DNA from: Gautieria morchelliformis
Taxonomy: Eukaryota > Basidiomycota > Agaricomycetes > Gomphales > Gomphaceae
Assembly (NCBI GenBank): GCA_015179125.1
Contig: WHVA01000293.1
Span: 1-64,000, forward strand
Length of the DNA: 64,000 nt
Direction: 5' to 3'
Below, one piece after another: positions 2,310 to 61,089 of the stretch. The position numbers and the translations under genes were made by a program. Positions within the stretch are counted from its first letter, which is position 1. Every line of letters starts with the position of its first letter. The notes beneath the pieces were generated by a model that made no database searches, was not told the origin of the DNA, and worked only from the letters and a program-made list of their open reading frames with translations.

Positions 2310-3110
2310 AAGAGTAATATATGCTGTGAAGCTTTAAAATTCTTTGTTTGTAATCTGTTATTACTTTGCTTCATGAATGCACCACTACTCCATTGATGTG
2401 TGTGCATGTGCGTGCACGTGCCTGAGATCCTGATCTGGTCTGAAAGTGTGTTCAGTTATGTTATTTATAAACACTATGAGGTATACCATACCATCATCAC
2501 ACCCTTATGCACCAGACCATCTTATGTCAGGGCTCAGGATGCATCAGTGCCAACTAATACCCCAACATGCACATTTGCAAATATAGAATCAATAATAATA
2601 GTCGCTGTTCATCACAGGCAGCAGCCTGTCCTGTGGTCCAGGATATGGGTGTCAGTGTGTGAGATGCTATTCTGTTTAGCAGAAGTATACTCCCAATTGC
2701 GGTTCCTGGATCCAATATAAAAGTGCCTGGCCTACGCAATGCCATCATTGAGAAACGTAATTCGTTCCTCCGGTGGAGTGCTGTCACAGCACTTGAAGAG
2801 AAGTATGATGAGGAAGGCTCTCCTGCCCACACCTGGGCTGTGCGCTGACTCGGCCCATGCATTGGCCCCATAGCACGAAGGTCATAAGCCCATGACTACA
2901 TCGAGCACCCTGCCAGACGGGAGTAGGCAAGGCCCTATTGTAATGCGCACGTATATCAGCAGTATTTGGCCTGGATGGAGTCTGGCATCACATTAAAATG
3001 AGTGTAAACTGAGGGAGATCAGGACGTACCCGATCCACATGATGGACACTGATATTCCAGTAGAGTGTATTTTAAACTCCACGCGAGCGCGGTAGTGAGT
3101 GAGTGAGTTA
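2310..3110 (+). repeat. Repeat unit 0: head block only
   Basis: This matches, in order, the head block of the ~6-kb units seen at 20.6-21.5, 52.4-53.3 and 58.6-59.4 kb. Shared landmarks include GTTATGTTATTTGTAAACAC-like and CATCAGTGCCAACTAA phrases and TAAACTCCACGCGAGC near the end. Only the head is present; the GC-rich and gene parts are missing because the copy stops before the LINE. Confidence 0.75.
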
Positions 3111-3204
3111 GTCAATTAGAGTGCTCGAAGCGCTTGGCGCTTATGGTGCACTGTAGCCAGTCATACAAACAAAGGACTAGTCTAATCATGTGATGCCACT
3201 TTTA

Positions 3205-5320
3205 ACCCTTCAGTCACTCCGACTCAGCATTGACACTGGTCGTGCCCTTACACAGCGTCGGCTTCGTAGACGATACGATGCTGTTCACAGAAGGGGCAAG
3301 CCTGGATGAAGTGTTTGATAAACTGACACGCATCATGAGCAGGCGTGGAGGAGTGCAAGAATGGGCGCAAAAGCACGACTGCACCTTCGCAGTCGACAAG
3401 TTCGGACTCATGGGTCTAACAAGGAGATGAGAAGCTGACCCCACGGGAACCAAAAAGACCAGACCGATGGCACGACCCACCATAAAGATAGGGCAGCACG
3501 TCGTCAAACCCACATCGTCAAACCCACGTCCTCCCACAGGTTCCTCGGGGTCATAATCGACCAGGAGCTCCAGTTCAAAGAGCAGGTCAACTTCGCGCTG
3601 CAAAAAGGGAGCAAGTTCGTGGAACAATATCGCAGACTAGCCAAGCCGTCGAGAGGGGTACCAGCTAAGTACATGAGACAATATTACATAGCGGTAGCCG
3701 TCCCAAAGCTATTGTATGCAGCTGACGTATACCTGGTGCCAGGCACAGCACAAAACAAAGGGACTAAAGGGTACATCAACAAGCTTGCTAGAGTTCAAAG
3801 ACAGGCCGCGCTGGCAATAATGGGTGCCATGAACACAACGGCGAGTGATTTATTAGATGCACATGCGAATCTACTGCCGTTCCACCTGCTAGTGGACAAA
3901 ATAGTGCACAGAGCCGCCGCCCGTATAGCCTGCCTCCCCGAAGCTCACCGCTTATCCCCCAGAGCTCATCGCGCCGCCTCCAGATACGTCAAGAGACACC
4001 GAACGCCACTGCACGAGATATTGCACACGTATAAGCTCCAGCCACACAAGATGGAGAAGATACACACGGTGATCAGAGAACCCAAGTGGACCCCCACCTT
4101 CCAAATAGTGATCCCACCGGACGAGGAGACGGCAATAGCAGAGATAAGTCACGAAACAGCGCGGATACAAGTCTTCTGCGATGGGTAGTGCATAGACGGC
4201 GGCGTAGGAGCAGCAGCAGTCCTCTATAGAGACGGAAGGGAGGAGATGACAGTGAAGCTCCATCTGGGAGCGGAAACAGAGCACACTGTATTCGAAGCCG
4301 AGTTAGTGGGAGCGGCGATGGGAGCGAAATTGTTGAACGCAGAACGCAGTGAAAGATACGTGATAGGGTTGGATAGTCAGGCAGCCATACTGACGACCAG
4401 AAGAGAAAAGCAGATCCCGGCGCAATACCTGGTTGACGCCATACACGGACAGCTCGAGAATGTCGCAAGGGCACAACCGAACGCAACAGTGGTCATGAGA
4501 TGGATGCCAGGACACAAGGGGGTCAAGGGAAACGAAAGGGCAGACGAAGAGGCTAAGAAGGCAGCGAGGGAGGAGAGCAGCGAAGAGAGGTACATCCCAA
4601 TGGAATGTCGAGGCATGCTGCCGAGAAGCAAGGCAGCCGAGCTCCAGAGGCACAAGAAGGAACTCAGAACAAGAGCAAAAGAGGCATTCGCAAGATCACC
4701 GAGATCCGAATACGCGCACAGAATAGACAAGACAATGCCATCCCCAGCATACGCCAAATTGACCGAAGGCATGGCCCGCAGACAAGCAGCAATTCTCATA
4801 CAAATCAGAACGGGCCACATTGCACTCAACAAGCACCTTTACAAAATAGGAAAGGTCGACACGTCTATTTGCGCAGCGTGCAAAAGAGCGGAAGAAACGG
4901 TCCACCACTTTTTATATATGCCCCGCATACAAGGAACAGCGCAAGGAACTGAAGTGGACACTAAGAAGGGCCGCCAGTGCCATCAGCACCCTACTAGCCA
5001 AGCCAAAAGCGATGAAGGCTCTGTTCAAGTATATCAGTGCCACAGGGAGGTTCGAGAGAATATACGGGAACCTGGAGATCGGGGAAAAAGGGAGAAAATA
5101 GGGAGGAAGAAGAGAAGGAGTAGGGACGAACCGCGCGAGAAGTGCAACCAAACCTCGCCAACGGAGGCACGGACAAGCCCAGGGCGTCACCCATGGAGCA
5201 GAAGCAGAGATAGAGATATAAGGGCTAGACAGAAGAAAATTGTCGACCGGGTATTTGTAGAAGCATCTTACATAGGGCCATGCCCCAAAAGACAATAAAT
5301 TGGATTTTAAAAAAAAAAAA
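3205..5320 (+). mobile_element. LINE, 3' part (RT end, RNase H, poly-A)
   Basis: A 5'-truncated non-LTR retrotransposon. It holds the end of a reverse transcriptase, an RNase H domain and a short cysteine/histidine motif, and ends in a run of ten A at about 5309-5320. It is followed directly by head-block repeat sequence. RNase H plus the ORF1 type seen at 26.6-28.0 kb fits a Tad1/I-like fungal clade, but the clade is inferred. The left border near 3110-3205 is uncertain, and no target duplication was identified. Confidence 0.85.
3230..5298 (+). pseudogene. LINE ORF2 remnant: reverse transcriptase end and RNase H
   Basis: The polymerase catalytic motif FVDD is at about 3271 (GFVDDTMLFTEG). 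The frame then shifts near 3430-3620 and continues as 3619-4188 (thumb/connection region: QYYIAVAVPKLLYAADVYLV). A TAG at 4186 splits the RNase H start, CDG and then IDGGVGAAAV. The frame from 4246 carries the remaining RNase H residues: glutamate in FEAELVGAAMG, aspartate in VIGLDSQAAI and the MPGHKGVKGNERADEEA block. A C-x2-C...H-H motif (CAACKRAEETVHHF) follows near 4870. One frameshift and one stop at least make this copy inactive. It ends before AATAAA-like sequence and the poly-A. Confidence 0.85.
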
Positions 5321-5627
5321 TGTACCACTCATCTATTGATGCTGGGAGTCAGTCCACTGTGTGCCAATTGGAGAATTGCACCCTGAGGAATATGGAGGGA
5401 TGGGCTCAGCTGAGTTCTCAGAAAGGGACTGTGTGGGGTGCCTGTGCCTGTGCATGCCTGGGATCCTGACCTCATCTGAAGGATATGATCAGTTATGTTA
5501 TTTGTAAACGCTATGAGTCATACCATACCATAATCACATTCTTATGTGCCAGGCCATCTTACATCAGGGCTCAGGATGCATCAGTGCCAACACTCCAACA
5601 TGCACATTAACAAATATTCACTGTCTC
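5321..5627 (+). repeat. Repeat unit 1: first part of head block
   Basis: The sequence directly after the LINE poly-A matches head blocks elsewhere (TGATGCTGGGAGTCAGTC, CATCAGTGCCAACACTCCAA). The match breaks at about 5627 and resumes at about 8376, so the 2.7 kb between is an insertion in this copy. Confidence 0.75.
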
Positions 5628-8375
5628 CTTACCCAAACCTCCCTCTGAGATTTGGCGCCCTTTGCCTTTGTGGGTGGCTGTGGCCTGTGCCTGACATTTG
5701 GACCACTTATCCTTTTTCCACCAACCATTTTACCCGGCCCTCCCCTGAACTGTTGTCCGATCGTCCCTCCCACCCATACCGCCACTTTCTCCTGCACCTC
5801 CATCTTCCTTTCAATATCCAGGTAATCATTTTCCCCCTGCCGTCTGCTACTTGGAGCAGAAAGGATCGGGTGGACCTGTGAGCATCGGCAGGAGCTGCCA
5901 GGATGTTGTGTCTTCTCAATCAAACTCTCCAGACTTCCGTCTCCATTCCTCTCCTCCAATGTTTTCTTATGACTTTCCCTGCATGTCCTCTGGATTGCCC
6001 TCGCCTTCACAGACTACGGTGGTTATGGAAGTAAGCACACTGTTCTCATCCCTGCCTCGCACCCCTTATCCCTTTTCAGGTTGTCTGCCCCTTTACCAGA
6101 CCCTTTGCTCTCCTGTTCTCAGACACAGACCTCCCTCCCCTTTCCCCTTTCCGGCTAAGCGACCCCTTCCCTCTGCGCTGTCTCCATAGCCTGTGCCTTC
6201 GCTCGCTGGTCGGTGCTGGATGAGCCCTATCGACACCTGGTCTTCGCGTTGACGTACATTCATGACTCCTCATTCAGTATGACCTCCTTAATCTCCTGGT
6301 AACCCATCTAGCAAATAGGCATCTGGCACATGACCTCATGAGCCTCAAGTTTCACCTCACCCTGGCTGGACAGTGTCGCCTCATTCGCAGTGTGCACCAG
6401 ATGCGGGCCTCAAGTCTCACCTCATGCTGGCTGGACGTTGTGCCACCATTCACACCAAAGGTGATATGGCCGTGGACTTTCTAATGACTAACTTATGAGT
6501 GATGCCCATGGGTTCAGGTGAGATCTCTATACTTTTATAACATACCCCCCAGTAATGCCAATGCCTTCAGGTGAGATCTCTGTACTTTTAATGTGCCCAT
6601 GTCCCGTCCTTTCTGCCCCCACCATCCAGCCTCTGATGTTTCATGGCCACATTACCCGCAAACATCTGCCAGATACGCCTCTGCCCCCCTTTGGCATTTG
6701 AGCTGTCTCTTCACATGCTGCATCCTCCATGTCTTTGCCTGTGGCCCATGTCTCTGATTGACTTTGTCCTCTGCACAGTGCTTCATACCGGGAGCGGACA
6801 ACTGACCTATGACCAATCTGGTTCTGTTGACGATTCTGAGAAGGACGCAAGAATTGCCCACAGAAGGTCAAGGTCCACTGTTTCTCTCGGAAGAGCCCAT
6901 GTAACCTCCCAACATTACATAAATTGGGCGAAGACAATTCTTTCTATTTTGTGCTGATCTTCCACCGCCCCTCAACATCTATCACGCAGCTAAGGGAGCT
7001 CACTACTGAGAATGCAACCGTCATGTCTACACTGCATGTGTACCCTTAGATCTTTCTGTGCTTCCGATGTCAAATTTGCTGACACCGATATGCCAGCGTC
7101 CATGCCTTTCAGCGATCGCAGAAACTACCTTCCCGTGAGCTTGGTCATGGAACCCCCACACTTGAGGAGCTGAGCCCCAACAGTAAGGGCCCGAAGAAAG
7201 AAGATAAACGCGAGCCAAACCAGTTCCAATGTAGGACGACTGTCGTGATACTAAATCCAAGTCCAAGACTCATAAGAGGCCAAACAACTCCAGAGGGAAG
7301 CGGAAGGCAGGTTAATACTAGAATATAGCTATCATACCTGCCAATGAGTGCTACACATCAGTTGTAGAAGGTTAGTGCTAATGTTGACCATCTCGTGTTG
7401 AACACTTGCCTATTATCTTAGTCGTGATGCAATGCAGCTTTGTCGTCCTCTGTCTACTGTGACTATGAAGAACCTGTTAAGGGTACTTAAGGTGAAGTTA
7501 TTGCTTCATGATGAAAGTATTATCGCCTTGCTCACAGTGCATCAGTGGAAGGAAGAATCACGCTATGGCAACAAAGAATGGATTGATGAAGAAATCAGTA
7601 CCTTTGAAAGCACTATCCTTGATTTTGGCCCCGAGCTAAGGACCAAGGCACCATGAGGACTTTACCTGAGGTTGTCCGCCACATTCGAAACCCTCAAGGC
7701 GGCCTTCACTACCGCTGCGCTGGCTGAAACATATCACCCATATGACAGCCAGTTCTGGAATCACCAAGGATGCAAAGGAGGTGGGAAGAATGAAAGTTGT
7801 CACCATCAGTGGTCAATATGTGGCTTTTGGGAGGACACAGCCTAGATAGTAAGCCAGACTGTCTTTGTTTATGGACCAATTTCTAACACGCGGGCTCATG
7901 CCCAAAACCACTGTGCTAAAATCATAATGATAATACTGGGAAATGGTTTTCTCTGCAATAAAGAATCACTGTTTGCTTTACATTTTGTCCCCAGGGAAAA
8001 GCTGGGTAATACCATGTATTTATTTATAAATATTATCATTTTGCTAAGATGTTGCAGGTCAGCAAAATCCATTTTGAACCTGATGTTTTTACCCAGTCTT
8101 GCCATGACAAACAACCTACTCATAAGACTACATTTTCTCAAGCTTTTATTTAGAGTTTTACCTGTCTGAATCTGATGATTTGGCTTGGATTTTCATGCGA
8201 GGCCAAATTATTGGAGAATTCACAGGTTTGTTGTGGTTTTCCCTGCCCAAAATATTATAATATAATCCAACCACTTTTTCCAGTTTTATTAAGGGTTTTT
8301 CCAGTGGGAAAACTTTCCTATGCCCCCAGTGTGGAACAAGAAGAAGCCGGCGTGAAGGGCCGGCACCTCTTGTAG
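5628..8375. mobile_element. Unidentified insertion in unit 1 head block
   Basis: About 2.75 kb with no counterpart in the other head blocks, so it is likely inserted. It is pyrimidine-rich on the plus strand at 5640-6700 and AT-rich at 7900-8300. Two near-repeats of CAGGTGAGATCTCT occur near 6517 and 6570. An open stretch at 7432-7656 (74 codons, LLLHDESIIALLTVHQWKEE) matches no family I recognise. The segment just before 8333, read on the minus strand, begins CACTGGGGGCATAGGAAAG, like the 398-bp foldback elements at 45.6 and 46.9 kb, so a CACTA-type end may lie there. No clean target duplication was found. Confidence 0.4.
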
Positions 8376-9559
8376 CATCAAGAATAATGGTCACCGTTCT
8401 CGCAGGCTGTCCTATGGTCCAGGATACAGGTGTCGACCAAGATGCAATTTGGCAGAAGTATACTCCCAATGCCAGTTCCTGATCCAATATGAAAGCGTCT
8501 GGCCCATGCCGCACCGGCATTGAGAAATGCACTTCGTTCTTCCGGTGGAGTGCTGTCACAGCGCGCGAAGAGAAGTATGACAATGAAGGCTCTCCCGCCC
8601 ACACCTGGGCTGTGGTCTGACTCAGCCTATGCATATCCCCCATAGTGGTAAGGTCATAAGCCCATGACTGCCTTGAACACCCTGTCAGACGGGAGTAGGC
8701 ACGACCCTATTGTAATGTGCATGCATGGAGTCTGGCATCACATTAAAATGAGTTTAAACTGAGGGAGACCACGACGTATCCGATCCACATGATTGACACT
8801 GATATTCCAGTCGCACGAGCAGAGTGTATTTGAACTTCACGCGAGCACCGTACAGTGTCGATGGGCATAAGTATACACGGATATGCCAAAGCGATAGGCT
8901 CGCTGCGTGTCCGCGTGTCTGCAAGCCTGAACTGATACTTGAAGCCATCGTGACGACCGCGGGATGCGATTTGCTGCCTGCTGTGCCTCCGGCACTCGAC
9001 TCATGAGTCATCCCGTGGTCCTGGTCCGACGCCAGCCGAGCAGGCGGTTCACAGAATGGCTTATGGGCGTCACCTTTTGCTCGCGCCGCCGTGCGGCAGG
9101 GGTTGCGGGTTGGGCCGGAGAACGTGCGCGGTTTCGTTTCCGCGGGGAGGATAGGTGGTGGTGGGTGGTGGGTTCACGAAGATGCGTTGCATGTATTTTC
9201 CCGCGACGCGGCGCGGGGTTAAGGCGGTGCGGCGGTGCGGGACGGACGATGTGGCGAGTGTGGGGGCGGGGAAGCTTGCAGGTGCAACGTTGGGTGCGGG
9301 CGGGGTGGAGCGAGGGGTAGGTGCGGGCGCGTGTGAGGCGCTCGTGGCGATGGAACTGATGTGGGAGCGGTTGTTGCTTTCGTCGTCGGCGGTGGTGTGT
9401 GTGTGCTGGGGTGGGTAGATGTGCGACGTGGCATGCCAGGGCCGGGCAGGGGTGGTGTACTGTTGCCCACAGCCGTGCCAAGCCCCCGCGAGCCGGACCA
9501 CCCCAGTGGGGGCGATGCCCGCACATGGCTCACCTCCATGCGCCCGCGACGCATCCACG

Positions 9560-10060
9560 TCACCCACAGGGGCAGTGCTCTCCAGACCCCAGTGCCGCTT
9601 CACGGAGGATCGTCCACCGCCACGTTAATCGCACGTACCCGCTCCCAGCCGACATAAAACTCGTGATCGCCCGGTACGCTAAACCCCCTTGCCAGGCCCG
9701 TCTTGAACTACTCACGTCGTCTGGGGTGTCTTCGCGCCCGCCTGTCAGCATGCCCCGTCCCCGCCTCCAAACCGCGCCCTGCTCAGGCCCCGCACGCGCC
9801 CCCTACCCTCAGAAATGCGCGCTCCTGCACGCGGAACCATGCGGATGTGCCGCGCCATGCGCCCCAGCTGCACATTCCTCTCCAGCTCTCTCGCGCACAT
9901 GGCTCGCACCGGCACGGCGTGCCCTCCGCGGCGAACCGCGTGCGGATCACGCGGGAAGGGGCCACTGCTTGGTAGAAAACGTCTTCATGAGCTCGTGCTC
10001 GTGGGAGGGGCGGGGAGGGCCCGGGGAGTGCGATGGGGGACGTGAGGGGCGTGAAGGCTG
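9560..10060 (-). pseudogene. GC-rich block 1 reading-frame relic, unit 1
   Basis: Not recognised. Minus-strand translations hold pieces shared with GC-rich block 2: WRGTSAWFRVQERAF, an ELERN-like stretch, and a downstream LAREF..GAGDR..FYV motif split across frames. The same pieces recur at 15.6-16.0, 54.0-54.4 and 60.1-60.6 kb. Recurrence in two diverged blocks suggests an old coding sequence that decayed after duplication. High GC makes many chance open frames here, so coding status is inference. Confidence 0.35.
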
Positions 10061-10214
10061 AGGCCGAGTCTAAGGAGACAAGGGGCGTTGGGTAAAATGG
10101 AGGCGGCACTGGCGAATGGGACGTACCGTGAAGTGGGGCGCGGTAGAATACAACTAGCCACATAAACGTACTCAGAATTTTAGTTCGGCGTTGCATCTCA
10201 AATTATGTGCCCAC

Positions 10215-10278
10215 TCACGAGCCCTGACAAAAATCGGGTAAAGCCCGGGTGAGCCGAGCCGGGCTTTGCAAAACACTA
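10215..10278 (+). repeat. Relic end of hAT-type MITE
   Basis: The sequence GAGCCGGGCTTTGCAAAACA followed by CTA resembles the right end of the full MITE at 48572-49010. The left part is missing or unrecognisable. The same relic occurs at the matching place in units 6 and 7. Confidence 0.5.
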
Positions 10279-10559
10279 GTTAGAAGTAGCATTGATCAGG
10301 ATGGCCAGCATTGGCAATGGAGGAAGACCGGGAACCTGCGACTCGATGACGTTCCGTCAAAATCCTAACTCCTTTCCTCGGAAAAGCAAGCCGGGGACAG
10401 GGAAGCACATTATGTAAAGCTCCGCCCGATCCTCGTCCATCGCCTTTCTAGCCATAATCAACGTCTATAACTGACAGGTCTGACAGCTGGCATCACATCC
10501 CGCCCAATCTGGACATCAACACCCTCTACAGCTGCTGGCCCAGGAAGGCGAGAGCGCGC

Positions 10560-11154
10560 TCCAGCCCATGCGCCGCTTCGCCGGAGGCTCATCCCCGGGC
10601 CCCGCGTCGCCAATCGCGCTGCCCGCCGACATGCAAGTCGGACTCGGCCGCGACGCTGAACTCCGGTGCCGGCGCCATCTTGAAGAACTCCCGCCATCTG
10701 GAGGCGTCGGTGTCATTGTGGGCGTGCCCGCCTTTGAGCATGTGCCCGGCCCTGTCTCCGCCCCCGCCCCCGAAAAACGTGCGCTCCTGCACGCCGAACC
10801 ACGCGGACGTCCCGCGCCATGCGCCGCGGCCGCACTCCAGCTGCCTATTCCTCTGGAGCTCTCCGGGCACACATCTAGCACGGGTAGCGCGCGTCCTCCA
10901 CGGGGAAGCGCGTCGCCGTGGGCGTGTGGGTCGTGGGGGAAGGAGCCGCCGCTCGGGGTACGGGTTCGGAAGAACTTCATGAGCTCGTGGCCGGTGGACG
11001 GGGGCGAGAAGGGCCGGCCGCAGGGCGGGAGGGTGGAGTCTAGGGAGCAGCGAGTGACGTTCGGTACGAGACACGCGGGACTGGGCAACAGGGCGTCCCA
11101 TCGGCTGGGTGGGGTTGTGTCTCCAGCGCCCGTGCTTGTGTCGGTGTCTGGGTC
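10560..11154 (-). pseudogene. GC-rich block 2 reading-frame relic, unit 1
   Basis: Not recognised. The minus strand starts with an ATG near 11154 about 80 bp downstream of a TATA-like box (11227-11236). It runs through a leader rich in T, Q and P, then HELMKFF, GSFPHDPHAHGD, WRGTSAWFGVQERTFF and REFFKMAPAPEFS. The order is conserved in units 2 and 6, with frameshifts between segments. A CPC motif next to GSFPHDPH in the unit 6 copy is compatible with metal or disulfide binding, but this is a guess. It is transcribed away from the DUF6533 gene. Confidence 0.4.
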
Positions 11155-11226
11155 ATGCTGGCGGATGGACGGATGGCGAGACGTGGTGGAGAGGGCAGCA
11201 AACGCGTCATGCAGGATGGACGAGCT

Positions 11227-11236
11227 GTTTATATGC
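11227..11236 (-). promoter_or_regulatory. TATA-like box upstream of the minus-strand relic
   Basis: GCATATAAA on the minus strand, about 75 bp upstream of the first ATG of the relic. The same box stands in all units that keep this region (for example near 17210, 32400 on the plus strand, and 55475). Confidence 0.45.
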
Positions 11237-12466
11237 GAAGGGAGATACCGGATACTCCGCGCGTTCCCCTTGCTGTCCAACCAGCACATACACACCCGCC
11301 GTCCCCTCCACCGGAAGGCATACCGGAAACATCATACAGGTTCATGGCCGTGGGCGGGAGAAGGTGGTGAGAGAGATGAAGCCTGGGAGGGAAGGCTGGT
11401 AGCAGTGTAGACCGGTAAAATGCGTGGTAATGACATCAAAGATGAGGTCCCTATCCGTGTCTGTGTCACGCTACTCTGAGTCGGGCGTCGGCGTGCATGT
11501 TTGTCTTTGTTTGGTGGGTGAGTGCCCACTGCCCACACGCGACGAAAGCTCTCTTGGCTCAGAATTATCAGTATCCGGTCGATAAGTGTTTATGAAATTC
11601 GATGGCAATGCGTCGTGTATCTAGGTGACGTCGTTTATGTTTTACTCTGGATCCCACCAGTTACCGGTGTTCCAAGGGAGCTGACATGATTCACGACAGC
11701 TACAATTTTTTCCAATCTGAATAATCGAATGACTGCAAAGACATGCCAGGTAGCGTTTGTGCTCGCTATTCTAATAATATCACACTAGACAAAACTGCAA
11801 ACAGATCGCAATAGCTTCCCGAGCTTTCCTGAGACACAAGGCACAGCACTACATCGCCGTCACAGCCGATACACCGACTGCACAATATCTCGGTTACCAT
11901 GTCGTTGTTCCCCATGTCGATATTTGATGGTCTCTTTATACGACCTCTTCCCACGTCGTACAGGACATGCTGCCAAATGAGAAATTTCTCAGGTCGCTAT
12001 GTCCACCACCATTGACACGAGCTGATATGTCTGCAGGGACCATCCAACGTCGCTACAGAATTACAGATACATGAAGTCTGACGATTGAGCTAGATCTGTC
12101 ATACCGTCTCACTTCCTCGTGTTCCCATCGTAACCCATTGGAGATGCGTGATCTTAATGCACAACAGTGAGCTTTGCCGGAGTTGGTTTTCATGTGTCGT
12201 TATGCTGACACTGCACAACGAGTCCATAATGAGTGCCAAGTGTCCTTACAGGACAACAAGTTTTAAATGCATCAGGCAAATCCAGGGTAGTAACTAACTC
12301 CTGACGAGAAGCCAAGTACTCGTTGGGTGATGCTTCTTGTTGTATTACTAACTTTAATTCTTTTATATGATGTTCTTCTATCAGCCCCATCCGCATTGCA
12401 AATTGTGGCATGCTTCAGCGATGGCGTGAATATCTGTTGGTCTGGCAGCACCCATAGACAGAATCT

Positions 12467-12474
12467 TATATATA
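12467..12474 (+). promoter_or_regulatory. TATA box of DUF6533-like copy A
   Basis: TATATATA lies 74 bp upstream of the ATG at 12548, after the conserved phrase CAGCACCCATAGACAGAATC. Matching boxes occur in copies D (about 50289) and E (56693), and on the minus strand for copy C (about 30970). Confidence 0.6.
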
Positions 12475-12547
12475 GACACCCTCCGCGGTTTCCACATCGC
12501 TACGCAAAACTTAGTCCCTCCTCTGCATCCCAGCTCTTTCTTGTATC

Positions 12548-22675: not shown

Positions 22676-22716
22676 GTGCGGTTGTTGCTTTCATCATCTG
22701 CAGTGGGGTGTGTGTG

Positions 22717-24210: not shown

Positions 24211-24280
24211 TGTGGGCTGGGGTGGGTGGATGTGCACCGTGGCAGTGTGCCAGGATCGTGCGGGGATGGTGTGCTGTTAC

Positions 24281-26335: not shown

Positions 26336-26339
26336 CCTC

Positions 26340-28195: not shown

Positions 28196-28214
28196 GTGCA
28201 GCTTCCAATAATGC

Positions 28215-48571: not shown

Positions 48572-49010
48572 TAGTGTTTTCCCGGCCCGGCTTGGGCTCA
48601 AAAGCCCCGGTCACGGCTTGGCCTGAGACGGCTCGGGCTTCACAAAACCCAGGCCGGGCTTTTTTTTACGGCTCAGGCCCGGCTCCGGCTCGGCTCGGCT
48701 TTGGCCCCGGCTCGCTGGAGCATGGCCGCAGGGTGAAAAACACCTTTTTCGTCCCTCATTTGAATATTAAACGCCTTATCTAATTTTCCCACGCATGATG
48801 CCGGCGCGCTGTGCCTGGCCGCCCAGGATGGCTTCACCCATACCATCTAGGCGCTCAAGAGCCGCGGCTTCACGGCTCGGCTCAGGCTTGTCAAATCCTG
48901 AGCCGGGCTTTTTGGGACGGCCTGGAGACGGCTACGGCCCGGCTCGGCTCGGCCTGTAAGGGCTCGGCTCCGGCTTTGTCGCGGCCTAAGCCGGGCCCGG
49001 GAAAACACTA
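48572..49010. mobile_element. 439-bp hAT-type MITE
   Basis: Inverted termini TAGTGTTTTCCCGGCCCGGC and, at the other end, GGGCCCGGGAAAACACTA. It is flanked by exact 8-bp duplications GGCACAAA (48564-48571, 49011-49018). Many GGCTCGG words line both arms. The empty site is seen in the other units (GGCACATACACA). No coding content. 8-bp duplications plus short TIRs indicate the hAT superfamily. Confidence 0.9.
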
Positions 49011-50381: not shown

Positions 50382-52132
50382 ATGTCTCAGGCGGACGCCT
50401 CGGCTGAAATCCAGGTACTATCAGACAGGTCCGTACTTACTACATTGAGTGCGATGTAAAACAACTTACCTGAACCAGCTTTGCGGTCATTTCTGCCATT
50501 TTCGCAGCGCTTAGTATGCGTACATGTCTCGTCTAATTCCACGAGTTTCATACCTTGTTACACAGCACTACTCTTCTTCGACACGCTTCTCACACTGCCA
50601 TCTGAGATCAGCCACATTTGGTGCAAGACCGTCAGGCTGGGCACCGTTCTCTATTTACTTGCCCGTTACATGCCCTTGGTTTTCCTTCTTTTTGATATAT
50701 ATGTTAACTTATCCAACATTTCCGCTGAGGTGCATTACATTACGTCTATGACTCTCCTGTGGGCGTTCCCTTACTGATTTGAATGAACATCTAGTATGAC
50801 TTTCATTCCTCACGCAAAGCAACCTAGACACTCATATACTGTATTTGGAGGAAATGTAATGCTATCGGTCACCTCAGTAGTACTTGCATTGCTCTCTCTC
50901 TCATTGGAGTACAAGGTGAGGGGTTATATCCGTATATTTCTCAACTAGAAAGATCAACACAATTTACTTGTCTAGGCCTACTGCTAGCCCGCACCTATGC
51001 TATTTGCTCTCAGAACCAGAGAGTTTTCGTGGGGGCTCTTGGGCTGCTTATTACTGGTGCTATTATCACTGAAGTGGTATGTCCCTGTCCAGACTTTGTA
51101 TAAATACCATAATTTCATTTCACTGGATATAGTACAGCTCTATTTTGGCCAACTGCAATCTCACTTCTTTACAATTTAATAGAGTAACCTTGTTAGTACT
51201 GATTAGAACTTTCTGCCTAGAGTTATACTAACAATTTCTTCAGGTGTAAGACCTAGGCCTGCATTTGCCAATCTGCCTCTGAGTACCTTTGACAGTGGTT
51301 ACCATCAGTGATGTTACTGTAATCCTTTTTGAGACTGGAGTCATGATAGTAGCTACACTAATCTCAGTTGAAACCTGGAGCCTGTGGCAGAGAGCTGAAC
51401 CTCAGTATCAGAGCTCACTCCTTAGTCTACTGATTTACCAAGGTGAGTATACACTATATTGCTTATACGTGTGGACATATCACAAATCCACAGGCAAGGC
51501 TGTGCTAGATATGGGTATGGAGTATTATTCCTTTGATATTTCATACATCTGACTTATATTCAGATTTGTGCTTACCATTGGTGTGGCTAATACTATCACA
51601 TCTAAGGTCTTGTTACTTATAAACCTGTTAAGCTTGAGAGCTTACTGTCTTCTTTTACATTTCAGGTATTGAAGGTACGTATGATATTTGATAATAAAAA
51701 TGGCTAATTTCAGCTCTTTGTATAAAGTCAAGCCTTGGTGCCATCTTAAACCCCCTTCAGAACAGGTATATTTCCAGTGAGAAAGACCTGTGATTTTACT
51801 AACAGTGCACATACAGCTTGTCAACAATTATGATCTGCCATTTTCACCTAGCTCTCAGAGAGAGACACTCTCAACTTGACAACCCCTCATCCTCCACGCT
51901 TTTATTCTCTACCATCCAAGCAGCCAGACAAAGTGTTCACAATGCTATAGTGGCTGAATTTGGGAACCCACAGGCTTCTAGTGCCGAGACCATGCAAAAT
52001 GATATGGCTGATGAGGAAAGCCAGCAGTCAGAAACGGCTCAGTCACCTGGGATAGAGTTAGAGGAGTTCCCTTGGGCAACTGGATATTCTGGAGATGTAG
52101 CACTGGCAGGGCCTGTTGTGTCTAGTGAGTGA
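50382..52132 (+). CDS. DUF6533-like multipass membrane protein, copy D
   Basis: ATG at 50382 (MSQADASAEIQ), about 85 bp after a TATATATA-like box (50289). Core exon ALLFFDTLLTLPSEISHIW with RLGTVLYLLARYMPLVFLLF. The next segments match copy C almost exactly (TREFSWGLLGCLLLVLLSLK near 51010; VTVILFETGVMIVATLISVE near 51320; GMEYYSFDISYI). The last exon has ICHFHLALRERHSQL, EFGNPQASSAE and GIELEEFPWATGYSGD. A stop codon at 50456 lies between the first ATG and the core, in a stretch that may be intronic. If that stretch is exonic, this copy is broken. Function unknown. Confidence 0.6.
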
Positions 52133-54009
52133 CTTAGTCTCCATCAGGCGCTGCTTAATAGCTTGGTAGGATCTGCTGGGAGCACAGCAGGGGCTTAAGG
52201 ATAGCATGCAAGCTAATGCATCATAGATGCAATTCCAGTACAAAACCCACAGCAATCGAGATGCAGCAACTTACCTTGACCATCCCATTCTCACCTTTTC
52301 AAACTATTGCAGCACTGTGCAATTGGTCACCATTGAAGATGTGGCACATCTGCTCACTCTGGCCAACCCATACCATCAAAAATAGTAGATACATAGATAT
52401 ATATATATATGCTGTGAAGCTTCAAATTTGCCTTGTTCATACTCTGTTATTACTTTGATTCATGAATGAATGCACAACCACTCCATTGATGCTGGGAGTC
52501 AGTCTACTGTGTGCCGGTTGGAGAATCGCATCTTGAGGGATGGGCCTGGCTGAGCCCATAGAAGGAACTGGGTGGAGTGTGTGCATGTGTGTGCGCATTC
52601 CTAAGATCCTGACCTGGTCTGAAAATGTGTTCAGTTATGTTATTTGTAAACCCTATGAGGCATACCATACCATCATCACAATCTTATGCGCCGGACCATC
52701 TTACATCAGGCATCAGGATGCATCAGTGCCAACTAACACCCTAACATGCACATTTGCAAATATAGAATCAATAATAATAGTCACCATTCATCACAGGCAG
52801 CAGCCTGTCCTGTGGTCCAGGATACGGGTGTCGGTGTCTGAGATGCTATTCTGTTTGGTAGAAGTATACTCCCAATTGCGGTTCCTGGATCCAATATAAA
52901 TGTATCTGGCCTATGCCACGCCATCATTGACAAACGTAATTCATTCCTCCGGTGGAGTGCTGTCACAGCGCGTGAAGAGAAGTATGATGAGGAAGGCTCT
53001 CCCACCCACACCTGAGCTGTGCGCTGACTCGGCCCATGCATTGGCCCCATAGCGCGAAGGTCATAAGCCCATGACTACATCGAACACCCTGCCACACGCG
53101 AGTACGCAAGACCCTATTGTAATGCGCACGAATATCAGCAGCATTTGGCCTGGGTGGAGTCTGGCATCACATTAAAATCAGTTTAAACTGAGGGAGACCA
53201 CGACGTACCCGATCCACATGATGGACGCTGATATTCCAGTAGAGTGTATTTTAAACTCCACACGAGCGCGGTACAGTGTCGATGCGCATAAGTATACACG
53301 AATATGCCAAAAGCCATAGGCTCGCTGCATGTCCGCGTGTCTGTCTTCAAGGCTCAAGTCGTGATACTTGAAGCCATAGCCACCGTGAGTGCGTGATGCG
53401 ATTTGCTGCCTGCCGCTGTACTTCCGGCACTCGACTCATGAGTCATCCGCTGGTCGTGGTCCGACGCCAGCCCAGCAGCGGTTCACAAAGTAACTTACGG
53501 GCGTCACTTTTCGCTCGCGCCGTGCGACAGGGGTTACTGTATGCGTTGGGCGGGAGAAGGTGCGCGGTTTCGTTTCGGCGGGGGGGTGGGCGGGGAGGAA
53601 TGGTGGTGGTGGATGGTGGGTCCACGAAGACGCGTTGCATGTATTTGCCAGCGCGGCTGCGCGGGGGTGCGGCGGTGCGGGACGGGCGATGTGGCGAGTG
53701 CGGGGGTGGGGAAACTTGTAGGTGCAGCATTGCGCGGTGGAGTGAAGGGAGGTGCGATTGGCGTGTGAGGCGCTGGGGGCGGGTATTGCTTTCGTCGGCG
53801 GCGGTGGCGTGTGTGTGCTGGGGTGGGTGGATGTACGACGTGGCAGTGTTCCAGGGCCAGGCGGGGGTGGTGTGCTGTTACCCACGGCCGCGCCCAGCCG
53901 CGGCGAGTCGGACAGCCCGGTGAGGGCGACGCCCGCACATGCTCACCTCCACGCGCCAGCGACGCATAGACGTCACCCGCGGGGAAGCACTCTCCAGACC
54001 CCTGCGCCG

Positions 54010-54440
54010 CTCCATCGAGGATCGTCCACCACGTCAATCGCACGTACCCGCCTGAGCGGACATAAAACTGGCGGTCGCCCGCGCCGCGAAACTCCCTTGC
54101 CAGGCCATCCTGTCTTGAAGTACGTCGTTTGGGGTGTTTCGCGCCCACCTTTCAGCGTGCCCCGTCCCCACCCCCAAAAACCGCTCCCTGTTCAGCCCCC
54201 GCACGCACCCCCTGCCCTCGGAAACGCGCGCTCCTGCACGCGGAACCACGCGGACGTCCTGCGCCACGCGCTCCAGTTGCACCTTCCTCCCCAGAGCTCT
54301 CGCGGCGTCGCGTACATGCCTTGCACGGGCACGGCGCGTCCGACGCGGCGAACCGCATGCCGCTCCCCGAGGCGTCGCGGTTGTGCGGATCGTGCGGGAA
54401 GGAGCCGCTGCTTGGGGGACAGGAGGAAACACATTCATAA
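54010..54440 (-). pseudogene. GC-rich block 1 relic, unit 6
   Basis: Best preserved block 1 copy. The minus strand shows GSFPHDPHNRDASGSG, MRFAASDAPCPCKACTRR, then WRRTSAWFRVQERAFPRAGG and, in another frame, LAREFRGAGDRQFYVRSGGY. The order equals that in block 2. The GSFPHDPH and CPC motifs shared by both blocks are the strongest sign of past coding. Not recognised. Confidence 0.4.
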
Positions 54441-54664
54441 GCTTGTGCCCGTGGGTGGGGGCGGGAAGGGCACGGGGAGGGCGATGGAGGACGTGAGGGC
54501 GTGAAGGCTGAGTCTAAGGAGAAGAGGGGCGTTGGGTGAAAGGGAGGAGGCACTGGCGAATGGGAGGTACCATGAAGTGGGGTGCGGTAGAATACAACTA
54601 ACCACATAATAGTACATAGAATTTTAGTTCGGCGTTGCCTCTCAAACGATGTGCCCACTCACAA

Positions 54665-54743
54665 GCCCCGACCACAGGCGGGGCCGAGGCCAGGTCTCAG
54701 GGCTCGGCCCTGAATTGTGACCCCGAGCCCGGGTGGAACACTA
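54665..54743 (+). repeat. Relic of hAT-type MITE, unit 6
   Basis: GGGGCCGAGGCC...GAGCCCGGGTGGAACACTA resembles the right part of the MITE at 48572-49010 and ends with the same AACACTA. Confidence 0.45.
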
Positions 54744-54769
54744 GCCAGCCCCCCAGGCCCCTCGCCGCT

Positions 54770-55398
54770 TCGTGGGGGACTCGTCCCCGGGCCCCGCATC
54801 GCGAATCGCGCCCACGCGCTCCCCGCTGACATGAAAGTCGCGCTCAGACCCGCCGCTGAACTCCCGTGCCAGCGCCGTCTTGAAGAACTCCCGACGTCTG
54901 GGGGCTCGGTGTCGTCGCGGGCGCGCCCGCCTTGGAGCATGCGCCCGGCCCCGCCTCCGCCCCAACTCCCACACCCGCCCCAGAAAAACCCGCGCTCCTG
55001 CACGCCGAACCACGCGGACGTCCCGCGCCACGCGCCGCGGCCGCACTCCAGCTGCCTATTCTTCTGGAGCTCGCCCCGGGTATACGTCTCGCACGGGCAG
55101 CGTGCGTCCTCTGCGGGGAAGCCCCCCGCGTCGCGGTGGGCGTGTGGGTCGTGGGGGAAGGAGCCGCCGCTCGGCGGACAGGGTGGGAAGAGCTTCATGA
55201 GCTCGTGGCCGGGGGGCGGTGGCGAGAAGGGCGGGCAGCAGGGCGGGAGGGCGGTGCGGGACGTGAGGGGCGGGAGGGTGGAGTTTAGGGAGCAGCGAGT
55301 AGCGTTCGGTACGAGATACACGGGACTGGGCAACAGGACGTACCACCGGCTGGGTGGGGTTATGTCTCCAGCGCCCGTGCTTCTGTCTGTGTCTGAGT
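54770..55398 (-). pseudogene. GC-rich block 2 relic, unit 6
   Basis: The longest open version: one minus-strand frame (55333-54659) contains HELMKLFPPCPPSGGSFPHD, AEDARCPCETYTRGELQKN and WRGTSAWFGVQERGFF. REFFKTALAREFSGGSERDF follows in the neighbouring frame (about 54890). A TATA-like box lies near 55475. The repeated motif order across units 1, 2 and 6 suggests a gene of about 150-200 codons that once formed a divergent pair with the DUF6533 gene. Function unknown; I cannot name a family. Confidence 0.45.
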
Positions 55399-56692
55399 CA
55401 TGCTAGCGGATGGATGGATGGCGAGACGAGGTGGAGAAGGCAACAAAAGCGTCATGGAGGGTGGATGGGCTGTTTATATGCAAAGGGAAATACCGGTGAC
55501 TCCGCTCGTTCCCCTTGCTGGCCACCAGGCACATACACATTCACCCCACCGTCCCCTCCACTGGAAGGCATACCGGAAACATCACTATAAGTGCATGGCC
55601 GTGGGCGGGAGAGGGCGGTGGGAGATATGAAGCCTGGAAGGGAAGGCTGGTAGCAGTGTAGACGGGTAAAATGCGTGGTAATGCCAAGAAAGATGAGGTT
55701 GTCGGTGTCCGTATCAGTGTCTGTGTCTGTGTCACGCTGCTCGTAACTACCGAGTCGGGCGTCGGCGTGCATGATTGTCTTTGTTTGGTGGGTGGGAGTG
55801 GCCCGTGAATTATCAGGATCCGGTCGATAAGTGTTTATGAAATTCGATGGAAATGCATTGTGTATCTAGATGATGTCGTTTATGTTTGACTCTGGATCTC
55901 ACCAGTTACCGGTGTTCCAAGGGAGCTGACATGATTCACGACAGCTACATTTTTTCCAATCAGAATAATCGAATGACTGCAAAAACATGCCAGGCGTCCA
56001 ATACCGTTTATGCTCGCTAGGTCGCACTGTCCCCATTCTAATGATATCACACTAAACAAAATTGCAAACATGTCCCAGATCACCTCAGTAGCTTCCTGGG
56101 CTCTCCCGGGCCACCGGGCACAGCTCTACATCGCCGTCACCGCAGATACGCCGAATGCACAATATCTCGTTACCATGTCGTTGTTCTCCATGTCGAAATT
56201 TGATGGTATCTTTATACGACCGCTTCCCACGTCGTACAGGACATGCCGCCAAATGAGAAATTTCTCGTGTCGCTATATCCAGCAACATCGACACTAGCTG
56301 GTATGTCTGCAGAGACCATCCAAGATCGCTTCAGAATTACAGATACGTGAAAACTCTGGGGATTGAGCTAGATCTCTCATATCACCTCGCTTCCTCATGT
56401 TCCCCTCTTTATAAGGAACACACCGGATACTGATACACATCGGTGTTGGTTTTCATGTGGTGTTACGCCGACACTGCACTGTGAGTCGTCAATGAGTGCC
56501 CAGTGTGACTACATGACAAGTTTATATGGACACAGGCAAATCGGAGGCGATGACCAATTTCAGGCAAGAACCCAAACATCAATTACTCGCCCCTGCCGGG
56601 CTACCCCTGTCTGATGCGTTGACGTTGTATTGTTAACTGATATAGGATGCTGTGAATATCTGTTGACCTGGCAGCACCCATGGCCAGAATCT

Positions 56693-56700
56693 TATATATA
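56693..56700 (+). promoter_or_regulatory. TATA box of DUF6533-like copy E
   Basis: TATATATA 86 bp upstream of the ATG at 56786, preceded by the conserved CAGCACCCATGGCCAGAATC. Confidence 0.6.
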
Positions 56701-56785
56701 CACCTTCGCGATCCGCTACTCCAACCCCACATCGTTACTCAAAACTTAGTCCATCGTCCGCATCCCAGTTTCTCTGTCTTATATC

Positions 56786-58597
56786 ATGTCTCAGGCGGAC
56801 GCCTCGGCTGTTATCCAGGTGATATCAGACAGGTCCGTACTTACTACATTGAGTGCGATGCAAAACAGCTTACCTGAACTAGCTTTGCGATCAACTCTGC
56901 CATCTTCGCAGCGCTTGGTATGTGTCCATTTCCCGCGTAATTCCACGAGTTCCATACCTTGTTACACAGCACTACTCTTCTTCGACGTGCTTCTCACACT
57001 GCCATCTGAGATCAGCCACATTTGGTGCAAGGCCGTCAGGCTCGGCACCATTCTCTATTTACTTGCTCGTTACATGCCCTTGGTTTGGTTTCTTGCTGAG
57101 ATATATGTTAACTTATCTAACATTTCCACTGAGGTGCATTACGTCCATTGTTCTCATGAGTAACCCCCCTACTGATTTGAATGAGCATCTAGTAAGACTT
57201 TCATTCTTCATGCAAAAGCAACCTAGAGACTCATATATTTGGAGGAAATGTAATGCTATCAATCACCTCAGTGATCCTTGTGGCGTTCTTTCTCTCATTG
57301 GAATACAGGGTGAGGGATTATACCCCTATATTTCTCAGGTAGAAAGATCAACACAATTTACTTGTCTAGGCCTACTGCTAGCTCGCACCTATGTGATTTC
57401 CCTTCAGAATCAAAGAGTTTTGGGTGTTCTTGCGCTGCTTATCCTTGGTGCTATTATCACTCAAGTGGTATGTCCCTGTGTAGACTTCATATAAATAGCA
57501 TAAATTCATTTCACTGGATATAGTACCTGTCTGTTTGGAACAACTGCAATATCACTATATCACAACTTAATAGAGTGATTTTGTCAGTACTGACTAGGAC
57601 TTTCTGCATAGATTTATACTAACAACTTCTGCAGGGGTAAGATATAGGGGTCTGTATTTGCCTGATTTGTCACTGAATACCTTTGGCAGTGGACACCATC
57701 AATAATGTTACTGTAATCCTGTTTGACACTGGAGTTGTGATAGTAACCATTCTGAGCTCAATTCAAACCCTGAGGTTTTGGCAGAAAGGTGATATTTGGG
57801 ATAAGAAATCTCTCATTAGTCTAGTGATTTACCAAGGTGAGCATACAACATATTGCATATATATATGGTCATATCACTAATCTCAGATAAGGCTTTGTCA
57901 GATATGGGTATGGAATATTATTCCTATTATATTTCATGTCTGATTCATATTCAGATTTGTGCTCACCATTACTGTAGCTAATGCTATCATATCTAAGGTC
58001 TTGTTACTTATAAATGTGTTAAGCTTTGAGAGCTTACTCTGTTTTCTTTTACATTTCAGGTATTGAGGGTACGTAAGACATTGATCTTGATAATCAAAAT
58101 GGTTAATTTCAGCTCCTTTGTTGTATAAAGCCAAGCCTGGGTGGCATCTTAACCCCTCTTCAGAACAGGTATATTTTCATTGAGAAGACCTGTGATTGTA
58201 CTAACAATGCACATACAGCTTGTCAGCAATTATCATCTGCCATTTTCACCTAGCTCTCAGAGAGAGGCACTCTCTTGACAGCCCCTCATCATCCACTCTT
58301 TTATTCTCCACCATCCAAGCAGGCAGAGAAAGTGTTCACAATGCCATAGTGGCTGAATTTGGGAACCCACAGGCTTTTAGTGCTGAGACTTTGCAAAACG
58401 ATGTGGACGATCAGGAAAGTCAGCAGTCAGAAGAGACTGTTAGGTTATCTGGGATAGAGTTAGAGGAGTTCCTTTGGGCAACTGGATATTCTGGAGATGT
58501 AGAACTGGCAGGGCCTGTGTGTCCAGTGAGTGGTTTGAGTCTCCATCAGGCACTTATTAATAGCTTGGTAGGATCTGGAAGAATGGCAAAGGCTTAA
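56786..58597 (+). CDS. DUF6533-like multipass membrane protein, copy E
   Basis: First exon MSQADASAVIQ. A 52-nt intron (56918-56969, GTATGT to TTACACAG) precedes the core exon ALLFFDVLLTLPSEISHIW, KAVRLGTILYLLARYMPLVW. Later exons: LGLLLARTYVISLQNQRVLG then VLALLILGAIITQVV (about 57365-57465), VTVILFDTGVVIVTILSSIQ (about 57710), GMEYYSYYI (about 57905), FVLTITVANAIISKVLLL-like (about 57955) and the last exon ICHFHLALRERH, FGNPQAFSAE, GIELEEFLWATGYSGD. Hydrophobic segments suggest six or seven spans with an acidic C-terminal tail. All exons are open, so this copy could be functional. The role of DUF6533 proteins is unknown. Most exon borders remain approximate. Confidence 0.7.
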
Positions 58598-60059
58598 GGA
58601 TAGCATGCGAGCTAATGCATCATAGCCGCAATTCCAATACGAACAGCACACAGAAAGGCACTGCGTGGGGCGCATGTGCATGCGCATGCCTAGGATCCTG
58701 ACCTTGTCTGAATGATATGTTTGCTTATGTTATTGTAGATGCTCTGAGCCATACCATACCATCATCACATCCTTATGCCCTGGGCCATCTTACATCAGGG
58801 CTCATGATGCATCAGTGCCAACTAACATTCCAACATCCAAGTTCACAAAAATACCATCCATAATAATGGTCACCGTTCATCGGAGGCAGCAGCCTATCCT
58901 ATGGTCCAGGATACGGGTGTCAGTCACTGTGATAATACTCTGTTCGACAGAAATATACTGCCAATGCCAGTTCCCTGATCCAATGAAAGTGTCTGGCCCA
59001 CACGGCACCATCATTGAGGAAACATACTTCGTTTCTCTGGTGGAATGCTGTCACAGTGTGCGAAGAGAAGTTTGATGAGGAAGGCTCTCCCGCCCCTACC
59101 TGGGCTGTGTGCCGAGTCGGCCCATGCATAGGATAGTGTGAAGGTCATAAGCCCATGACTGCCTCAAACACCCTGCCAGACGTGAGTACGCAAGACCATA
59201 CTGTAATGCATACGGATATCAGCAGTCTTTCGCCTGGGTGGAGTCTGGCATCACATTAAGCGAGTTGAAACTGAGGGAGACCACGATATACCCGATCCAC
59301 ATGATAGACGCTGATATCCAGTCGCACGAGCAGAGTGTAGAACTCTACGCGAGCACCGTACAGTGTCGATGCGCATAAGTATACACGGATATACCAAAAG
59401 CGATAGGCTCGCTGCGTGTCCGCGTGTCTGTCTTCAAGCCTGAACTGATACTTGAAGCCATCGTGACGACTGCTGGATGCGATTTGCTGCCTGCTGTGCC
59501 CCCGGCACTCGACTCATGAGTCATCCCGTGGACCTGGTCCGACGCCAGCCGAGCAGGCGGTTCACAGAATGACTTATGGGCGTCACTTTTTGCTTGCGCC
59601 GCCATGCGGCAGGGGTTGCGCGTTGGGCGGGAGAACGTGCGCGGTTTCGTTTCTGCGGGGAGGAAAGGTGGTGGTGGGTGGTGGGTTCACGAAGATGCGT
59701 TGCATGTAATTTCCCGCGCGGCAGGGGTTAACGCGGTGCGGCGGTGCGGGACGGACGATGTGGCGAGTGTGGGGGCGGGGAAGCTTGTAGGTGCAACGTT
59801 GGGTGCGGGCGGGGTGGAGCGAGGGGTAGGTGCGGGCGCGTGTGAGGCGCTCGTGGCGATGGAGCTGATGTGGGAGCGGTTGTTGCTTTCGTCGGCGGTG
59901 GCGTGTGTGCTGCGGTGGGTGGATGTGCGACGTGGCAGCGTGCCAGGGCCGGGCGGGGGTGGTCTGTTGCCCATAGCCGTGCCAAGCCCCCGCGAGCCGG
60001 ACCGCCCCAGTGGGGGAGACGCACGCACATGGCTCACCTCCACGCGCCCGCGACGCATC

Positions 60060-60560
60060 GATGTCACCCGCGGGGGCAGCGCTCTCCAGACCCCTGCGCC
60101 GCTTCACGGAGGATCGTCCACCGCCACGTCAATCGCACGTACCCGCTCCTGGCCGACATAAAACTCGCGATCGCCCGCCCCGCTAAGCTCCCTTTCCAGG
60201 CCGTCTTGAAGTACTCACGTCGTCTGGGGTGTCTTCGCGCCGGCCTTTCAGCGTGCCCGCCCTCAAACCGCTCCCTTTTCAGGCCCCGCACGCGCACCCT
60301 GCCCTCAGAAATGCGCGCTGCTGCACGCGGAACCACGCACTCCAGCTGCACGTTCCTCTCCAGATCTCTCGCGCACATGCCTCGCACGGGCACGGCTCGT
60401 CCTCCGCGGCGAACCGCATGCGCATCGTGCTGGAAGCAGCCACTGCTTGGGGGACAGGTAGAAAACATCTTCATGAGCTCGTGCTCGTGGGCGGGGCGGG
60501 GAGGGTCCGGGGAGGGCGATGGGGACGTGAGGGGCGTGAAGGCTGAATCTAAGGAGAAGG
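60060..60560 (-). pseudogene. GC-rich block 1 relic, unit 7
   Basis: HELMKMFSTCPPSSGCFQHD at about 60480-60420 links block 1 to the HELMKLF...GSFPHD motif of block 2. ARDLERNVQLEC and REYFKTAWKGSLAGRAI follow. The frame is the longest open one for block 1 (60621-60064) but the GC-rich context makes that weak evidence. Not recognised. Confidence 0.35.
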
Positions 60561-60694
60561 GGCGTTGGGTAAAAGGGAGGCGGCACTGGCGAATGGGACG
60601 TACCATGAAGTTGGATGACAACTAGCCACATAAAAGTATGTAGAATTTTTAGTTCGGCGTTGCATCTCAAACGATGTGCCCACTCACGAGCCCT

Positions 60695-60747
60695 GACAAA
60701 AGGCGTGCACAGCCCGGGTGAGCCGAGCCGGGCTTTGCAAAACACTA
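60695..60747 (+). repeat. Relic end of hAT-type MITE, unit 7
   Basis: Same GAGCCGGGCTTTGCAAAACA-CTA end as at 10278, at the same place in the unit, so the relic predates the duplication of these units. Confidence 0.5.
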
Positions 60748-61089
60748 GTTAGAAGTAGCATTGATCAGGATGTGCGGTGGGATGGACAAGGCCAGCATTG
60801 GCAACAATGATTGAATCGAGGAAGACCGGTAAGACATATTTTCAGACTTAACCGAAAACATGCAGGAAATGGTAAGTAATCTAAGCGGATTGTTTACACT
60901 GCACGTCGGAAATCTCCGTCGAAATGGAAGACCCACAACTCGGAATTTCCGAGTCACGTGTCAGTGTTGCTGTGGCGTCGACTTCTTGAAAATCTTCGCG
61001 GCGTCAAATGGGCGAGCCTGGCACTAAAGCGTCAATCCACATAATACATTTCTAGGCCCCTAAGTCTTGTTCCACACCCACCAGCCAAA

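Follow-up and report, generated by a model that had tools for sequence, protein, structure and literature searches.

Chemoreceptor-type gene families evolve by birth and death, which leaves tandem clusters, damaged among intact copies and exchange between copies. Satellite higher-order repeats are multi-unit blocks that recur with the same internal order. Here, we describe a locus with likeness to both: the first 64,000 bases (henceforth the window) of contig WHVA01000293.1 (C330; 142,552 bases) of the fungus Gautieria morchelliformis (assembly GCA_015179125.1; 122,073,039 bases in 1,113 contigs) carry a broken tandem array of a ~6-kb unit that is composed of a gene for a membrane protein with a DUF6533 domain and ca. 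4 kb of flank rich in guanine and cytosine (GC-rich). The array resembles chemoreceptor-type families in its tandem clusters, its damaged copies among intact ones and its signs of exchange, all known here from sequence alone. Its multi-unit blocks also recur in the same internal order like those of satellite higher-order repeats but, unlike in these, the units are few, diverged, gene-bearing and broken by retroelements. The array is real though broken, a cluster of gene-bearing units that belongs to a much larger family and is of a familiar evolutionary kind. We consider it probable that it is a birth-and-death tandem array within a multigene family of DUF6533 membrane proteins, likely surface receptors or sensors with seven predicted helices.

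The DUF6533 gene snb1 of Coprinopsis cinerea is required for the shaping of the fruiting body, and its product is predicted to have seven helices with the N-terminus outside and could be a transporter, a channel or a receptor (PMC10949477). The snb1 family is reported to have 1–3 copies in most Agaricomycetes and 4–5 in Psathyrellaceae with no major expansion, and DUF6533 is stated to be basidiomycete-specific (PMC10949477). Some Ganoderma genomes have DUF6533 in their domain lists (PMC8955403), and proteins of the DUF6534 family have been proposed by machine learning as a possible new fungal class of G protein-coupled receptors (GPCRs; PMC12842992). SNB1 and the window protein share a DUF6533 domain, and the window protein may resemble SNB1 in being a membrane protein with seven predicted helices but, unlike the snb1 family with its 1–3 or 4–5 copies, the window gene has a signature found at 225 sites in its genome, a comparison made by domain and not by orthology. 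The DUF6534 proteins are, as those of the window family may be, seven-helix proteins that are numerous in mushroom-forming fungi, yet the window protein belongs to another Pfam family because it matched DUF6533 and had no match to DUF6534 in a Pfam search. We found no description of an array of DUF6533 genes in the titles and abstracts of the limited literature collection searched. A receptor role of the window protein may fairly be inferred from its predicted seven-helix layout and these published relatives.

A broken array of gene-bearing units

An earlier note on this DNA, made from the letters alone, had proposed a broken tandem array of a ~6-kb unit with at least seven whole or partial units in the same block order, five of them with a DUF6533-like gene. 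Self-comparison of the window and mapping of the unit on the contig bear this out with nine stretches between 2398 and 60772 that comprise complete and partial units besides one fragment, and five of these stretches carry the gene. The dot-plot check suggested in the note is answered by the same self-comparison, which shows the expected diagonals, with successive units in direct alignment at offsets of 5.96–6.05 kb (8.4–14.6 against 14.7–20.7 kb), 6.09 kb (52.6 and 58.7 kb) and 6.4–6.5 kb (49.3–52.2 against 55.8–58.6 kb), all with 77–86% identity over 0.9–2.2 kb (E ≤9e-119); single matches reach offsets of 5.8 and 7.0 kb. The window thus contains tandem duplicates such as are expected of a birth-and-death family.

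All stretches lie on the forward strand except for one inverted unit. The first (2398–3094) is a part unit with the start of the GC-rich block, 92% identical to 52577–53273 and cut by a retroelement. The second (5319–14647) opens with the first part of a unit (5319–5617, matching 52469–52763) that is resumed at 8373 behind a 2.75-kb insert of unknown kind and no assigned strand (5618–8372), which interrupts a match left unbroken at 52.76 and 58.85 kb. There follow a GC-rich block (8373–12256), apparently non-coding by a Pfam test of its open reading frames (ORFs) and by the periodicity of its variable sites, and gene copy 1 (12340–14640). The next unit (14655–20683) consists of a GC-rich block (14655–18390) and copy 2 (18388–20676) and is followed by a GC-rich part unit (20673–21990) and a unit fragment (26350–26573), all located by self-comparison. 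Self-comparison and unit mapping together place the inverted unit (32797–28211, i.e., 28211–32797 on the reverse strand) with copy 3 (28777–31074, reverse), a whole unit (52463–58640) with its GC-rich block (52463–56565) and copy 5 (56566–58869), and a last GC-rich part unit (58646–60772). Unit mapping delimits the partial GC-rich block (48185–50149) of the stretch at 48185–52456, which bears copy 4 (50150–52468). Transposons had been said to split the array, and retroelement domains are indeed found between the units.

Beyond the window, the unit recurs in inverted orientation at 87–127 kb of the same contig and on a second contig, C415. Blocks in the order A-gene-B-gene-C are found at 8.4–22.0 kb and inverted at 108.8–89.7 kb of C330 as well as at 106.7–120.3 kb of C415, where the order gene-B-gene-C also occurs at 246–236 kb. 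This recurrence of the same order in larger pieces points to tandem duplication followed by the copying of larger pieces. Neighbouring units are 12–14% apart and hence not freshly made, so the "recent amplification" that had been suggested does not hold for neighbours. It does hold for some distant copies, with 99% identity in places and with 7 kb at 98.3% between C415:240001–247000 and 11373–18373 of the window, which may be a recent segmental duplicate or a second allele.

These close matches raise the question of an assembly artefact or an uncollapsed second haplotype, which would also accommodate the 912 bp shared at 99.2% by the end of C330 and the start of C415. We hold this account of the array to be extremely improbable. 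The 12–14% between neighbouring units exceeds what duplicated reads would give and, while three RPB2-type polymerase genes are expected per haploid set and six in two, the genome has four main loci and one remnant of them, not six; alleles may nevertheless account for the 98.3% stretch. The contig ends in question are C330:141646–142552 and C415:1–910, and part of this sequence recurs at C330:136492–136852; the two contigs may be neighbours or be joined only by a common repeat. In the stretches of C330 and C415 examined, no telomere repeats were found.

The gene is far more widespread than the unit. A first look gave 637 DUF6533 candidates in the genome; the 150 that were scored all passed the cut-off, while none were seen in 14 prokaryote control genomes. 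Taken with the introns, the Copia-type remnants and the reported restriction of DUF6533 to basidiomycetes (PMC10949477), these candidates indicate by themselves a basidiomycete, probably a mushroom-forming one. A 26-base signature of the gene (≤3 mismatches) has 225 genome sites and a 26-base signature of the flank (≤3 mismatches) has 35 on 11 contigs, with none for either reversed pattern; these counts are rough since each rests on one signature, and they make the gene signature ca. six times commoner. The gene amplification considered in the earlier note is thus well borne out by repeated gene-bearing units and these gene-signature sites, and its alternative of a large repeat that captured a gene was rejected because the gene family is the larger entity. 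By the same token, we regard it as highly improbable that a mobile element or macrosatellite moves the 6-kb unit with the gene as cargo. The flank signature does occur on 11 contigs. But ten flank ORFs gave no Pfam match, including to transposition proteins (which a non-autonomous element could also show) and, besides the excess of the gene signature, many copies lie several to a contig with common block order (some contigs have one copy among the matches listed), and the block edges vary between units.

The DUF6533 gene and its copies

For a gene model, 18 copies from contigs C330, C415, C449 and C219 were aligned and conserved GT and AG sites were located. This yielded 12 exons at 12548–14302 (copy 1 coordinates, forward strand) that encode a protein of ca. 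340 residues. On the basis of conserved splice sites, exons 1 (12548–12594) and 2 (12645–12679) are followed by exon 3 (12732–12895; GT in 17/17 copies), which holds most of the DUF6533 match, and by exon 4 (13007–13071; AG in 16/17 copies and likewise placed in the paralogues shown). Then come exons 5 (13132–13229), 6 (13286–13348), whose join to the next is out of phase, and 7 (13452–13598), a 16-base microexon 8 (13654–13669) whose product GFVRYG is present in paralogues, exon 9 (13719–13761), two proposed microexons of 9 bases (exon 10, 13824–13832) and 5 bases (exon 11, 13933–13937) and, as placed by the gene model and paralogue comparison, exon 12 (13989–14302) with the last membrane segment and the tail.

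A boundary check showed that the phase does not close across the intron 3 region (12896–13006) either, which may contain a microexon. At this junction and at junction 6/7 (13349–13451), no simple GT-AG choice that was tried restores the phase, and the paralogues are similar at both; a microexon may be missing there or splicing may be unusual. The exon 3/4 boundaries chosen at first (12921, 12989) were dropped because paralogues have a stop inside, while GT at 12896 and AG at 13005 are shared, and a read-through exon 1 was replaced by the model with two introns.

The DUF6533-like character of the gene that had been noted is confirmed by PF20151, which the spliced copies 1 and 5 match with 43.9 and 41.5 bits (E 2.5e-11 and 1.4e-10) over a curated cut-off of 24.1. 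This match covers residues 23–66 and so lies outside the doubtful junctions. Seven hydropathy maxima were judged by eye using the first exon model, the last two of them weak, and the best hit of a search against solved structures was an unrelated protein (E 0.54). When the protein was compared to eight further loci of the genome (L001–L008), six matched across most of its length with 50–72% in single-exon high-scoring segment pairs; the alignments of L006 and L007 are identical and those of L005 and L008 nearly so, which leaves ca. four independent loci, while L001 matched weakly and L004 not at all. These extended matches to more distant copies within the genome support the gene model.

The earlier note had also stated that the genes keep open exons, which is largely true of the window: in-frame stops are absent from four of its five copies. 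We call a copy clean if it has no in-frame stop, no frameshift and GT/AG at all listed sites (with exon 3/4 boundaries at 12895/13007). Copies 1 and 4 are clean, the latter with three extra bases in exon 5. Copy 2 has no in-frame stop but a net gain of five bases that frameshifts exon 6, and two extra bases near the end. Copy 3 has a single in-frame stop, located in the tail, and copy 5 is open with a one-base loss near the last codons. It was the move of the exon 3/4 boundaries that turned copy 4 from frameshifted to clean and left copy 3 with its one tail stop.

Across the 17 copies whose status was listed, 13 have no in-frame stop and the remaining four share five stops; four copies are clean (one each on C449 and C415 besides copies 1 and 4), and a lesion in the form of a frameshift, stop or lost splice base is present in 13, i.e., damaged copies stand among intact ones as in birth-and-death families. 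These 17 of the 18 aligned rows also entered the sliding-identity and run tests below, and 16 were used elsewhere: C415:26238, homologous in its 3′ half only, was left out of all gene counts, and L010, 99% like copy 1, was left out of the counts of variants, splice bases, indels and dN/dS (the ratio of non-synonymous to synonymous substitution rates).

Exchange, divergence and selection

Several copies look like mosaics of one another. A run test over 735 polymorphic sites put 13 of the 136 pairs at p≤0.002 and 22 at p≤0.01, without correction. In the strongest tract of 657 bp (12749–13405, copy 1 coordinates), the copies at 56.6 and 100.5 kb of C330 agree at all 276 polymorphic sites and have 50 mismatches elsewhere. 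The copies at C330:18388 and 90988 show the reverse pattern in sliding identity, with 97–99% on both sides of a tract at 84–91%. The uncorrected run test and the sliding identity thus both indicate exchange between copies as is typical of birth-and-death families, and they point to ectopic conversion or recombination, indistinguishable here, as the likely source of the mosaics.

The note had further proposed that the genes are kept while the surrounding blocks decay, which holds mainly for indels. Gap openings per 100 bp amount to 0.3–1.7 in six gene comparisons and to 3.5–4.6 in five of six flank comparisons (1.3 in the sixth). For substitutions, a faster decay of the flank is not borne out in three of the four pairs measured, with gene and flank values (the latter from still-alignable parts only) of 0.121 and 0.135 for units 1 and 2, 0.102 and 0.120 for units 1 and 5, and 0.133 against 0.131 and 0.134 for units 4 and 5. 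In the fourth pair, copy 4 and the inverted copy 3, the gene (0.050) is less diverged than the two flanks (0.098 and 0.162), and we read its low divergence as a probable trace of conversion. A second gene in the GC-rich block was considered and discarded, given no Pfam match up to E 1 for the ten ORFs tested of the flank of unit 1 and no three-base periodicity of variable sites in 27/27 flank windows. As a side observation, CpG transitions in the gene reach 0.13–0.30 per site versus 0.03–0.08 at other sites; sites in CpG context make up 3–4% of the gene and 7–23% of the compared flank stretches.

What has been protected is gene structure. Splice bases are variable at 6 of 44 positions, other intronic GT/AG bases at 72 of 129 (p 6e-7). 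Exons have 14 indel events in 1006 bases and introns 39 in 749, a rate 2.7-fold lower in exons (p 6e-6), and 9 stop-making variants were seen where 16.7 were expected (p 0.028). Splice sites and frame, and more weakly the absence of stops, are therefore protected, while protein sequence on average is not. The median dN/dS is 0.80 both for 120 pairs of 16 copies (0.32–1.34) and for the ten window pairs (0.56–1.01), and comparison to distant paralogues at six loci gave 0.61–0.67 over all codons. Neutral simulation by the same method produced medians of 0.74–0.85 with 95% limits between 0.52 and 1.32, so none of the observed values shows constraint. The first exon boundaries underlie this simulation, the paralogue comparison and a codon permutation discussed below; the other variant counts and the pairwise dN/dS were redone with 12895/13007. 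We have thus withdrawn dN/dS as proof of function, and the dN/dS check between copies that had been suggested gives a result indistinguishable from neutral, which is one half of the outcome that the note had named as refuting. The retained function that the note proposed has mixed support, from splice sites, frame and, weakly, the absence of stops, but not from amino acids, for which no constraint was detected.

Could the array simply be decaying junk that lost its function before or soon after amplification and has drifted neutrally since, with the protection of splice sites and frame reflecting a short past or annotation bias? The neutral variant spectrum and dN/dS, the equal substitution rates of gene and flank in three of the four pairs with both measured, and the lesions in 13 of 17 copies would all fit. 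We nevertheless find this unlikely in view of the low variability of splice bases, the rarity of exonic indels and the total of five in-frame stops, confined to 4 of 17 copies, together with the deficit of stop-making variants.

An alternative that we rate as rather unlikely is a diversifying repertoire in which selection favours change in the outward parts of the protein and conversion shuffles these parts among copies, in the manner of chemoreceptor or recognition families. It draws on a dN/dS of 1.12–1.15 in outer versus 0.56–0.60 in inner parts (permutation p 0.01 with 16 copies and 0.03 with 8) and on mosaic tracts that span the middle exons. But the permutation used the first exon model with its doubtful 3/4 join, and the effect rests on dS (dN alone gives p 0.11 and 0.27). 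Among distinct variants, neither class deviates from expectation, with an outer ratio of 1.30 (p 0.26) and an inner one of 0.78 (p 0.09), or 1.45 (p 0.13) and 0.79 (p 0.13) with the mended model. The contrast, based on a topology drawn by hand, was sought once the data had been seen and is a lead only.

In the birth-and-death reading that we favour, unequal crossing-over would have made and lost units, ectopic gene conversion would have produced the mosaics, and selection would have kept splice sites and frame while leaving amino-acid changes nearly free. Such freedom would be expected under redundancy of many copies or where change is an advantage in itself. Several points weigh against it. 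Protein-sequence constraint was not detected in the variant counts, where 334 codons hold 364 distinct non-synonymous variants (365.2 expected) and 160 distinct synonymous ones (151.1 expected), nor in the median dN/dS, which falls within neutral simulations. Two of the 11 splice junctions (3/4 and 6/7) are out of phase, and conservation itself partly guided the choice of splice sites. No donor of the tract in the copy at 90988 was found among the 16 other copies (best 92.4%), and besides the missing correction of the run test, regional conservation can inflate its weaker signals. Most of the 225 gene-signature sites were counted by signature alone, without their sequence being read. Finally, SNB1 lies outside the GPCR classification according to its authors (PMC10949477).

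A more far-reaching proposal, which we regard as distinctly doubtful, is that the family forms a repertoire of many seven-helix surface receptors of the DUF6533 type, diversified by segmental conversion in broken arrays, with the architecture kept and the outward parts free or pushed to change. If true, this would give fungi an equivalent of chemoreceptor or recognition repertoires, which might serve to distinguish self, partners or hosts. DUF6533 is a family of unknown function, with snb1 as its single member investigated in the literature found, and the clean, damaged and mosaic near-copies are natural test material for a receptor role and for its variable side. Selection for change in the outward parts would imply a recognition role; in its absence, the array is a clear case of an amplified family whose gene structure is kept while its protein sequence is unconstrained.

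Retroelements and other sequence in the window

The element that cuts the first part unit is a retroelement piece on the forward strand (3095–5318) with a ribonuclease H domain (PF00075, E=4.7e-8, in a frame at 4189–5295) and an A-run at its 5.3-kb edge. It is probably a non-LTR element (LTR, long terminal repeat), a class assigned by inference. Just beyond the array, 61415–61978 matches protein phosphatase 2C weakly (E 0.0016, below the curated cut-off). Two remnants are of Copia type, namely a gag remnant on the reverse strand (33479–34171; PF14223, E=1.5e-11, and PF00098) and a polymerase remnant on the forward strand (44042–45247; PF25597, E=2.5e-9, and PF07727, E=1.7e-42). Beside the latter lies a pair of ~400-bp repeats (45587–45984 and 46895–47292) that match each other both directly (93%) and in inverted orientation (83%).

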